Assembly: GCF_015350805.1 (NCBI RefSeq)
Contig: NZ_JADKSG010000001.1
Span: forward strand, 1,908,513 to 1,972,512
DNA: 64,000 nucleotides
Direction: 5' to 3'
DNA from: Herbiconiux sp. VKM Ac-1786
GTDB lineage: Bacteria > Actinomycetota > Actinomycetes > Actinomycetales > Microbacteriaceae
A program made the position numbers and the translations under genes. Shown one piece after another: positions 2,585 through 5,340 of the stretch. Below the pieces are notes generated by a model. That model was not told where the DNA came from. It was given only the letters and a program-made list of their open reading frames with translations, and did no database searches. The number at the start of each line of letters is the position of its first letter. Position 1 is the first letter of the stretch.

Positions 2585-2878
2585 ATGACCGTGATCTCGC
2601 TGCTCGACCTGCGCATCAAGCCCGACCTGCTCGACTCCGCGCCGGAGGTGATCCACTCGGTGCTCGCCGCCACCCGCGCCCGCGAGGGCAGCCTCGGTGT
2701 CGAGGTGACCGTCGACGCCGACGACCGCGAGCACTTCATCGTGGTCGAGAAGTGGGAGTCGATGGAGGCCGACGACGCGTACCGCGAGTGGCGGTCGACG
2801 CCCGAGGGCGTGTCCGACCTGGGGTCGCTGCTGGCGGCGCCGCCGGTGCTGACGCGCACGGTCGTCACCGACATCTGA
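2585..2878 (+). CDS. Antibiotic-biosynthesis monooxygenase (ABM) domain protein
   Basis: A 97-residue single-domain protein of the dimeric ferredoxin-like ABM fold. The core signature is REGSLGVEVTVDADD followed by HFIVVEKWESMEADDAYREW, where family members show E-x-W-x-(S/D)xxAxxxH. The usual His of that last motif is replaced by Tyr-Arg. Members act as cofactor-free quinol monooxygenases, haem-degrading enzymes or general oxygenases; which applies here is not visible. The gene is leaderless. The next gene downstream, the helicase, has its own promoter. Confidence 0.75.
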   Translation: MTVISLLDLRIKPDLLDSAPEVIHSVLAATRAREGSLGVEVTVDADDREHFIVVEKWESMEADDAYREWRSTPEGVSDLGSLLAAPPVLTRTVVTDI

Positions 2879-2909
2879 GGGCTCGCCGCCCGGGCTCGGG
2901 CGGTGGCAC

Positions 2910-2938
2910 TCGACAGGGGTCGGCCGATCGTGTAGTGT
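2910..2938 (+). promoter_or_regulatory. Sigma-70-type promoter of the RNA helicase
   Basis: TCGACA at 2910-2915, a 17-base spacer, and TAGTGT at 2933-2938. A start near 2945 would leave an untranslated leader of about 200 bases. Confidence 0.6.
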
Positions 2939-2944
2939 CGGTTG

Positions 2945-3144
2945 GTCGGCTCTGGACACCGTGGGGTTCCCTGCGGTTGGGTTTGTAAGTCTGGTGGGCC
3001 GGTTTCCCAGTCAGCGCATGGAAGCGCTGGTCACTGGTGAATGTCGCGTACGACACGGCCCCCGCTACTCCCGGGGATCTAGTTAGCACTGCCAACACGT
3101 TCGGTGTTGAGGTGTGCGCAATTCGAGATAACCCAGGAAGAATC
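2945..3144 (+). promoter_or_regulatory. Hairpin-rich 5' leader of the DEAD-box helicase
   Basis: About 200 untranslated bases contain a series of strong stems. These are GGAcACC/GGTTCC (2954-2970), CCAGT-CAGCGC/GCGCTG-GTC-ACTGG (3007-3037), TGTCG/CGACA with loop CGTA (3042-3055), a CCCCG/CGGGG stem near 3060-3077, and CAACAC/GTGTTG with loop GTTCG (3093-3109) enclosed by GCAC/GTGC. The stems stop about 25 bases before the ATG at 3145, just ahead of the likely ribosome site CCAGGAAG. Helicase mRNAs of this class are often cold- or self-regulated through their leaders. A specific RNA family was not recognised. Confidence 0.55.
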
Positions 3145-5340
3145 ATGCCCAAATCCAACAAGTCCGGTGGCTTCAAAGCCGCCAAGAACTACGAGCCCCG
3201 CACCCCCGGCAAGGGCGGCCCCAAGGCCGGCAGCCGCAGCCCCTCGCACCGTGGCTTCAAGCCCGCCGACGAGTCGGCGCCGCGCAAGCAGCGCTGGAAC
3301 GCCGACGAGCGCAGCGCCCGCGGCGCGGCCCCGAGCTCGCGCGGCGAGCGTCCCTCGTACGGCGACCGTCCCGAGCGTCCCGCCTACGGTGACCGTCCCG
3401 AGCGCGGCGGCTACAGCCGCGGTGAGCGGTCGGAGCGTCCGTCGTACGGTGACCGTCCTGAGCGCGGCGGCTACAGCCGCGGTGAGCGGTCGGAGCGTCC
3501 GTCGTACGGTGACCGTCCCGAGCGCGGCGGCTACAGCCGCCCGAGCCGCGAGAACGGCTTCAACAAGTCCGGCACCGGCACCGGTCGCAGCGAGCGTCCG
3601 GCGTACGGCCGCGACGAGCGCCCCGCCCACAACCGCGACGAGCGTCCCTCGTACGACCGCGACGAGCGTCGCGTGCCGCAGCGCACCGACCGCCAGAAGT
3701 GGAACGACGCCCGCAACGAGGAGCGCCGCGCCGAGGCCGCCAAGGCCCGCGAGGACGCGCCCAAGAGGACGTGGGAAGAGCGCCCCAAGCGCTCCTTCGA
3801 CCGCGCTGACCGCCCGGCGCGCAGCTTCGACGACCGCCCGAAGCGCTCGTTCGACCGCGACGACCGTCCGGCTCGCACCGAGCGTCCCGCCTACAACGAC
3901 CGTCCGGCTCGCACCGAGCGTCCGGCGTACAACGACCGTCCGGCGCGCAGCTTCGACGACCGCCCCAAGCGCTCGTTCGACCGCGACGACCGCCCGGCCC
4001 GCAGCTTCGACCGCGACAGCCGCCCGGCCCGCGCCGAGCGCAGCGACCGCGGCAGCGACTTCTACCCGAACCGCGACAGCAAGCCCGCCTTCAACCAGGC
4101 CGACGACGTCGTGCTCGAGCGCCTCGAGGCCCAGGCCACCCTCGCCGGAGACGTCGACGGCGTGACCTTCGCCGACCTCGGCATCGGCGGCAACATCACC
4201 CGCGTGCTCAAGGAGCTCGGCGCCGAGAGCCCGTTCCCGATCCAGGCGGCCACCATCCCGATGGTGCTCGAGGGTCGCGACGTGCTCGGCCGTGGCCGCA
4301 CCGGTTCCGGCAAGACCATCGCCTTCGGCGCCCCCCTCGTGGAGCGCCTGATGGAGAACGGCGGCGGCGCGAACCGCAAGCCGGGCCGCAAGCCCCGGGC
4401 GCTCATCCTGGCCCCGACCCGCGAGCTGGCCCTGCAGATCGACCGCACCGTGCAGCCCATCGCGCGCGCCGTCGGCCTGTTCACCACCCAGATCTACGGC
4501 GGCGTGCCCCAGGCCCGCCAGGTGGGCGCGCTGCAGCGCGGCGTCGACATCATCATCGGCACCCCCGGCCGCATCGAGGACCTGATCGAGCAGCGTCGTC
4601 TCGACCTCAGCGACGTCACCATCACGGTGCTCGACGAGGCCGACCACATGTGCGACCTGGGCTTCCTCGAGCCGGTGCAGCGCATCCTGCGTCACACCAA
4701 GGACGGCGGCCAGAAGCTGCTCTTCTCCGCCACCCTCGACAAGGGTGTCGCCACCCTGGTCGAGGAGTTCCTCGTCAACCCGAGCGTGCACGAGGTCGCC
4801 GGTGAGGACCAGGCGTCCAGCACCATCGACCACCGCGTGCTCGTCGTCGAGAGCCGCGACAAGAGCGAGATCATCAAGCAGCTCGCCGACCGCGAGGGCA
4901 AGACGCTGATCTTCAGCCGCACCCGCGCCTACGCCGAGATGCTGGCCGAGCAGCTGGAGGACGCCGGCTTCCCGGCCACCAGCCTGCACGGCGACCTCAA
5001 CCAGTCGCGCCGCACACGCAACCTGCAGCAGCTCACCAGCGGGCGGGTCAACGTGCTCGTGGCGACCGACGTGGCGGCCCGCGGCATCCACGTCGACGAC
5101 ATCGACCTGGTCATCCAGGCCGACGCGCCCGACGAGTACAAGACGTACCTGCACCGCGCCGGCCGCACCGGCCGTGCCGGCAAGAAGGGCACCGTGGTCA
5201 CCCTGATCCCGCGCGCCCGTCGTCGCCGCATGGACGAGCTGCTCGACCGCGCCGAGATCGAGGCCGAGATGGTCGACGCCTTCCCCGGCGACGCCCTGCT
5301 CGGTGAGATCGCGGCCGACAGCCCGGTCGCACCCCGCTAG
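3145..5340 (+). CDS. DEAD-box ATP-dependent RNA helicase with long disordered N-terminus
   Basis: 731 residues. Residues 1 to about 320 are low-complexity and charged (Arg, Asp, Glu, Gly, Ser, Tyr), built from repeats such as RPERGGYSRGERSERPSYGD and TERPAYNDRPAR. The helicase core follows: GRTGSGKT (Walker A, about residue 385), APTRELALQ, TPGR, DEAD (497-500), FSATLDKG, then in the second lobe VATDVAARGIH and HRAGRTGRAG. The core unwinds RNA duplexes using ATP, probably for ribosome assembly or mRNA turnover in the cold. The long tail is N-terminal, whereas many bacterial homologues carry theirs at the C-terminus. ATG 3145 is chosen over an in-frame GTG at 3037 because the latter lies among leader hairpins. 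Confidence 0.95.
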   Translation: MPKSNKSGGFKAAKNYEPRTPGKGGPKAGSRSPSHRGFKPADESAPRKQRWNADERSARGAAPSSRGERPSYGDRPERPAYGDRPERGGYSRGERSERPSYGDRPERGGYSRGERSERPSYGDRPERGGYSRPSRENGFNKSGTGTGRSERPAYGRDERPAHNRDERPSYDRDERRVPQRTDRQKWNDARNEERRAEAAKAREDAPKRTWEERPKRSFDRADRPARSFDDRPKRSFDRDDRPARTERPAYNDRPARTERPAYNDRPARSFDDRPKRSFDRDDRPARSFDRDSRPARAERSDRGSDFYPNRDSKPAFNQADDVVLERLEAQATLAGDVDGVTFADLGIGGNITRVLKELGAESPFPIQAATIPMVLEGRDVLGRGRTGSGKTIAFGAPLVERLMENGGGANRKPGRKPRALILAPTRELALQIDRTVQPIARAVGLFTTQIYGGVPQARQVGALQRGVDIIIGTPGRIEDLIEQRRLDLSDVTITVLDEADHMCDLGFLEPVQRILRHTKDGGQKLLFSATLDKGVATLVEEFLVNPSVHEVAGEDQASSTIDHRVLVVESRDKSEIIKQLADREGKTLIFSRTRAYAEMLAEQLEDAGFPATSLHGDLNQSRRTRNLQQLTSGRVNVLVATDVAARGIHVDDIDLVIQADAPDEYKTYLHRAGRTGRAGKKGTVVTLIPRARRRRMDELLDRAEIEAEMVDAFPGDALLGEIAADSPVAPR
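3388..3540 (+). repeat. 60-bp tandem repeat inside the helicase gene
   Basis: A 60-base unit recurs in frame: 3421-3480 and 3481-3540 differ at one base, and 3388-3420 matches the second half. It encodes repeated Arg/Glu/Gly/Tyr-rich 20-residue blocks. Confidence 0.9.
3867..3944 (+). repeat. 36-bp direct repeat inside the helicase gene
   Basis: Two near-identical in-frame copies encode ARTERPAYNDRP. They lie in the same disordered segment as the 60-bp repeat. Confidence 0.75.

Follow-up and report, generated by a model that had tools for sequence, protein, structure and literature searches.

A conserved structured leader RNA with two candidate folds precedes a DEAD-box helicase gene in Microbacteriaceae

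Why does the mRNA of a DEAD-box RNA helicase begin with about 200 nt of hairpin-rich leader, and what might that leader do? The gene lies at 3145-5340 on the + strand of what we call the window, the whole 64,000-nt stretch of Herbiconiux sp. VKM Ac-1786 DNA that was analysed. It encodes a protein of 731 amino acids with Pfam DEAD and Helicase_C matches. The helicase core begins at about residue 340, after a long, repetitive and charged N-terminal half, and is 99% identical to that of Herbiconiux gentiana, the closest named locus. The best NCBIfam match of the helicase is CshA, under its cut-off. The part of the gene that encodes the N-terminal half (3345-4032) holds several short tandem repeats, with periods of 60, 36, 30, 27, 24 and others, and these encode charged units rich in R, D, E and P.

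The leader, its promoter and its distribution

The promoter proposed by an earlier, sequence-only reading of the window, TCGACA-N17-TAGTGT, is present at 2910-2938 (+ strand) as a -35-like TCGACA (2910-2915), a 17-nt spacer and an extended -10 element, TGTAGTGT, with the hexamer TAGTGT at 2933-2938. Its -10 element is conserved in relatives, although a generic sigma-70 scan did not call the promoter at 2910-2938. In a profile anchored on GTCGGCTC, with the first leader base as +1, a TAnnnT hexamer occurred at -12 in 87 of 92 distinct relatives (G-13 97%, T-12 96%, A-11 95%, T-7 97%), and a -35-like motif was found at -35 in 40 of the 92. Mean information in these relatives was 0.14 bits at -70 to -41 versus 1.73 bits at +1 to +12. 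The hexamer at -12, the G at -13 and the weak conservation at -70 to -41 together make transcription from 2945, or from one to two bases off, a well-supported prediction. No intrinsic terminator (a stem followed by a T run) was found within window positions 2850-3200.

A DNA search with the leader gave matches in 91 of 199 sampled family genomes. Many of the weaker ones spanned query positions of about 15-80 (window positions of about 2944-3009), mostly 5′ of the first stem named by the sequence-only reading. Iterated nhmmer matched 104 of 110 loci, some of which are one genome taken twice, and yielded 100 leaders with adequate coverage, 92 of them distinct, whose alignment runs from GTCGGCTC as far as the start codon. 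Of the 64 sequences remaining after filtering at 90% identity, 48 joined the window in alignment A1, those omitted being mostly ones with long inserts; the covariance model R1 was built from 49 sequences. The window's structured leader (about 200 nt, 2945-3144, + strand, from the predicted +1 at 2945) scored 109 bits with R1, whose training set included the window sequence.

The leader had been thought likely to be a conserved RNA element, and the model searches bore this out, as did the covariation in its helices described below. R1 matched 210 of 299 Microbacteriaceae genomes at E ≤0.01, covering 68 of 85 genera, with a single leader match in every one of the 210 except G146, a fragmented assembly. 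The helicase gene lay downstream on the same strand in 41 of 42 model-found loci, the remaining locus ending at a contig edge; in these 41 there are 298-1,335 nt from the leader match to the start of the helicase core. All 20 genomes matched among 297 in an order-wide sample belong to Microbacteriaceae. A broader model, R2, matched 19 of 246 genomes in a class-wide sample, 11 within the family and 8 outside it. We rejected these 8, which had E values of 0.006-0.05 and no helicase-core match at any of the loci.

No leader was found upstream of helicase homologues at 30 loci from other families, several of them cut by contig ends and all viewed through a 1,500-nt flank that may fall short. The best helicase homologues in the genomes of these 30 loci were 43-53% identical. 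As identity there is so low, the helicase subfamily and the leader may, on this comparison, be confined together. Among 15 family loci chosen because their genomes gave no clear match, one (L168) has a clear leader, two (L170 and L169) have weak ones and another (L180) has a chance-level hairpin only. Genome-level searches may thus miss divergent copies, as with L168, where a direct look found the leader in an unmatched genome.

Leader size and divergence vary within the family. Three leaders (L021 1516-1797, L017 1516-1815 and L089 2710-2983) are 274-300 nt long including the start codon, compared to about 200 nt. The very divergent leader of L170 (287-471, 21 bits) has GGAGCG..CGCUCC in the P1b region, different yet complementary. 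In four family members with small genomes of 1.4-1.8 Mb (L175, L177, L178 and L179), the helicase is 59-64% identical and the leader is not recognisable.

An open frame from GTG 3037 suggested that the leader could be an N-terminal extension of the helicase. Relatives rule this out: leader lengths fall in all three frames (28, 24 and 21 leaders), and 63 of 73 leaders contain in-frame stops. Some ATG or GTG frame of at least 8 codons, closed by a stop, occurs somewhere in 69 of the 73.

The sequence-only reading had recognised no named RNA family in the leader, in agreement with our searches of Rfam. With Rfam 15, the window gave four tRNAs and no match in the leader, and 20 loci carrying relatives gave no match above the gathering threshold. 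At E values up to 10, the window leader and a second leader (L054) gave chance-level matches only. The literature consulted, motif-discovery papers included, is an incomplete and partial sample; it showed no comparable motif in a helicase leader.

Helices and their covariation

The four stems named by the sequence-only reading can be traced in the letters of the window: 3007-3011/3033-3037 with 3012-3017/3024-3029, 3042-3046/3051-3055, 3060-3064/3072-3076, and 3093-3098/3104-3109, the last enclosed by GCAC (3086-3089) and GTGC (3114-3117) as had been described. Three of them form in the window's minimum-energy fold, together with the GCAC/GTGC pairing. The fourth, at 3060-3077, is absent from that fold, where its strands pair elsewhere; it is backed by relatives in the pair counts of alignment A4. 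The window leader folds mildly more stably than chance (z -1.68; 10 of 200 shuffles equally good), and the mean z over 78 leaders was -1.32. The strong evidence for a structured leader is comparative, not from the folding of single sequences. Two features had been missed, an alternative pairing and a 5′ domain at 2945-3003. This domain, which runs from the predicted +1 and comprises helices P1, P1b and P2, is the most conserved part of the leader.

All 83 rows of A4 were used for the pair counts of the structure, of P1alt and of the pairing between the P5 3′ strand and AACCC. Dropping five partial or weak matches (L157, L159, L161, L162 and L163) left 78 rows, which served for the top-pair test, the standard-pair percentages, the swap tests, and the P6 and leader folds. 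The 73 of these 78 leaders that end in ATG were used for openness, enforced folds and frame counts.

Within the 5′ domain (+ strand, as are all features below), P1 pairs 2945-2952 with 2996-3003, P1b pairs 2953-2957 with 2989-2993 and P2 pairs 2959-2964 with 2971-2976. In A4, 96.1%, 96.3% and 96.3% of their respective cells are paired, and both-side changes were seen in two of eight pairs of P1, all five of P1b and all six of P2. The joining loop, UUGGGUUUGUAA (2977-2988), is variable outside a highly conserved UGU seen in the alignments. The hairpin P3 follows at 3004-3041 (3004-3017/3024-3041 in Herbiconiux), with both-side changes in all eight pairs counted and four pairs at E ≤0.04 against the tree null. 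P4 (3042-3055) is UGUCG-CGUA-CGACA in the window and usually UCAC..GUGA in relatives, and changes on both sides in all four pairs counted (A4). P5 (3060-3076) has 97.9% of cells paired and both-side changes in three of five pairs. P6 (3086-3117), between P5 and the ribosome-binding site, varies in length and sequence among relatives, and its segment on average folds better than shuffles (mean z -1.26, n = 77).

Compensatory changes in the stems, which the sequence-only reading had named as the sign of a conserved element, were found across relatives. The whole structure has 41 pairs, five of which are a pseudoknot, with 92.3% of cells paired, and 31 of the 41 pairs (three pseudoknot pairs among them) change on both sides compared to an average of 18.0 in shuffles, all in A4, which was fitted to most of the proposed helices and so flatters counts made on it. 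Both-side cells in A4 numbered 355, compared to a shuffle mean of 96.7 (none of 500 shuffles reached 355) and to at most 77 in controls with partners slid by 1-3 columns. In the 78-row A4, every one of the ten column pairs that covary best falls within P1b, P2, P3 or P4; six had E ≤0.04 and all ten had E <1 under a tree-preserving null, which was our own implementation of the R-scape idea and not R-scape. When 92 leaders were aligned by sequence only with MAFFT and tested against the same null, the top three pairs fell in P1b/P2 (E 0, 0 and 0.05) and the fourth-ranked pair (E 0.65) is outside the helices. Comparison among relatives shows the RNA family, helices P1b to P5 and the link to the helicase gene; helix P1 is well supported by the same comparison.

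A strand with two candidate partners

The strand GGGCCG (2996-3001) can pair with the 5′ end, as in P1, or with CGGCCC (3056-3061), a conserved stretch 60 nt downstream that overlaps the 5′ strand of P5. We refer to this second pairing as P1alt; it is the one used in the window's minimum-energy fold. Since P1 and the CGGCCC pairing share one strand, two mutually exclusive folds would be available to the leader, a conclusion that is supported but not proven. The six P1alt pairs (columns 51-56) are 97-100% standard in 78 leaders, and over the 83 rows both-side changes were found once each at 51-104, 53-102 and 54-101. Both-side cells total four, including one at a mostly unpaired seventh position, compared to nine in the control slid by +1. 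The percentage paired was matched by 121 of 500 shuffles, and the covariation score by none of 500. In a swap test that keeps relatedness, exchanging strands among species gave poorer pairing than the native strands, for P1 and for P1alt alike (0 of 5000 in each case).

A further sign comes from P1 itself. Three of its eight positions (columns 1-58, 2-57 and 7-52) are U-G or G-U in 63-70 of 78 leaders, which would be odd in a helix that forms only P1 and natural if one strand serves two partners. Compensatory changes for P1alt are few; the leader is probably a switch.

When the pairs were enforced, the P1alt fold was more stable than the P1 fold in 66 of 73 leaders, by a mean of 7.7 kcal/mol, and the gap was within 5 kcal/mol in 13 of 73. 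For the 5′ domain by itself the mean folding energy was -23.6 kcal/mol. With P1alt usually the more stable and the 5′ domain stable on its own, these computed energies make it plausible that the first fold is a trap from which the RNA later passes to P1alt.

How might either fold reach the ribosome-binding site? Here AACCCA (3130-3135), whose AACCC is common among relatives, overlaps a Shine-Dalgarno-like AGGAAG (3135-3140; 3130-3140 together). One candidate partner is the loop sequence UGGGUU (2978-2983), complementary to AACCCA, which would form a pseudoknot. Its cells are 80.2% paired, with 6-18 unpaired rows per pair (83 rows). When loop and start regions were swapped between leaders, their pairing was poorer than in the native combinations (0 of 5000, and 3 of 5000 for the 29 leaders that lack GGGTT, a motif present in 49 of 78 loops). 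As a universal feature, the GGGUU/AACCC pseudoknot was rejected: it fits the core clade, and the loop changes of divergent genera are uncompensated. The GGGUU loop is absent from L056 and L060 (Mycetocola), L144 and L146-L156, most of which retain P1, P1b, P2 and the UGU.

The other candidate partner of AACCC is the GGGUU of the P5 3′ strand, with 72-97% standard pairs in 78 leaders and 86.3% of cells paired, a value reached by 1 of 500 shuffles. Its five both-side cells compare with up to nine in slid controls, and the swap test gave 96 of 5000. The pairing formed in about half of the computed ensembles (means 0.49-0.56), and the window's minimum-energy fold pairs 3073-3075 with 3132-3134 instead of forming P5. 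Covariation is thin for both the P1alt and the P5/AACCC pairings, which we keep as candidates. A third pairing, the long-range helix GUAUGUG/CAUGCAC between P4 and the tail, was rejected, with pairs that are 47-92% standard and a flat swap test (2060 of 5000), which also served as the control for the loop swaps.

Two P5 bases are used by P1alt, which could thus release the P5 3′ strand. Over 73 leaders, P5 had a computed mean of 0.24 when P1 was formed and of 0.01 when P1alt was. A first measure of openness (12 nt before the AUG plus the AUG) was alike in the two folds (0.49 versus 0.48, p = 0.29). A second measure, covering AACCC and the binding site, gave 0.45 in the P1 fold versus 0.39 in the P1alt fold (51 of 73 leaders, p = 4e-5); having been chosen after the first was null, it is a lead and not a result.

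Possible roles of the leader

Structured leaders on helicase mRNAs are a known kind of element, and the present RNA family appears to be new. cspA-type cold-shock leaders combine a long 5′ UTR, competing folds and a cold-related gene; the present leader differs from them in its gene and in having no Rfam match. The Actino-pnp motif, judging by its name, sits on an RNA-turnover gene. It is listed as RF01688 in PMC2864571 and, to the extent of that listing, is like the present leader an actinobacterial structured cis-regulatory RNA. It differs in its gene, and the Rfam scans of the window and of the relatives' loci gave no match to it.

Caulobacter crescentus belongs to another phylum. Its rhlE mRNA has a 186-nt 5′ UTR needed for full expression, and mutation of rhlE raises the activity of rhlE promoter fusions (PMC5472812). 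As described there, rhlE resembles the present case in being a DEAD-box helicase mRNA with a long leader for which several stems are predicted, with evidence of self-regulation for rhlE; unlike the present leader, its 5′ UTR is not assigned to a conserved structural family in the accessible parts of that paper. The crhR gene of Synechocystis, also a helicase gene, is autoregulated and is under the control of temperature as well as of its own product (PMC3485376). This control acts via transcript and protein half-life, and the accessible parts of that source describe no covariation-supported leader (PMC3485376).

Our preferred reading, to which we give a probability of roughly 0.4, is that this cis-acting leader, with its own promoter, controls the expression of its helicase through helicase-aided refolding. 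The 5′ domain (P1, P1b and P2) would be made first and would sequester the mRNA's extreme 5′ end. After transcription of about 117 nt, GGGCCG could quit P1 for CGGCCC. Formation of P1alt would free the 5′ end and deprive P5 of bases, leaving the P5 3′ strand able to pair with AACCC. The helicase might speed the refolding from P1 to P1alt, or unwind P1. With ample free helicase the mRNA would then adopt the fold with less translation or faster decay; in the cold, or when helicase is short, it would stay in the trapped, productive fold. We infer which fold is active, that the helicase is the effector, that cold is a trigger, and whether translation or decay is the output. That the helicase controls its own synthesis, perhaps with a coupling to cold, is favoured by inference from the link to one helicase gene, the usual lower stability of the first fold, and the precedents of rhlE and crhR.

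The two competing folds would also suit a cspA-like cold thermosensor working independently of the helicase, in which temperature shifts the balance between the folds and hence translation. Helicase genes are often cold-induced (PMC5472812, PMC3485376). We nevertheless consider such a sensor unlikely. The leader had no Rfam match whatever, cspA included, and the computed openness of the 14 nt before the AUG drops from 0.44 at 37 °C to 0.39 at 10 °C in 73 leaders, the wrong direction for simple cold induction.

P1 starts at the predicted +1 and is 96% paired, as would be expected if it were a static stem or buffer that stabilises the mRNA and does nothing else, shielding the 5′ terminus from nucleases that depend on the 5′ end. 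Such a stem would leave the conserved CGGCCC, the U-G pairs of P1, the UGU loop and P3 to P5 unexplained, and we regard it as quite unlikely to be the whole function. Binding of some other RNA-binding protein, for example a ribosomal protein, perhaps by a mimic of 23S rRNA that ties the helicase to ribosome assembly, is very doubtful. Two highly conserved strings of the leader, GTCGGCTC (2945-2952) and TGGGTTT (2978-2984), do occur once each in the genome's own 23S rRNA (L184), separated by 75 nt and ordered as in the leader; local alignment of the leader consensus with 23S rRNA is at chance level, however, with 24 of 200 shuffles as good (181 of 200 for the window leader). A metabolite riboswitch is highly improbable, for although the 5′ domain is compact and conserved with an unpaired conserved loop, that loop is variable outside its UGU and the associated gene in the loci checked is a single, non-metabolic helicase.

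Helicase-aided refolding, the reading we prefer, could take a more specific form, in which the leader is a kinetic trap that gauges free helicase, the helicase catalysing on its own mRNA the passage from P1 to the stable P1alt. We hold this form to be doubtful. If true, the RNA would be both the substrate and the feedback sensor of the helicase, and cold, by slowing spontaneous refolding, would be read at the same step.

To our knowledge, how bacteria meter their RNA helicases is poorly understood. The RNA family described here is well supported and, at the loci checked, goes with one gene. The leader makes a compact system for study, with a helicase that may act on a bistable RNA governing that helicase's own synthesis.
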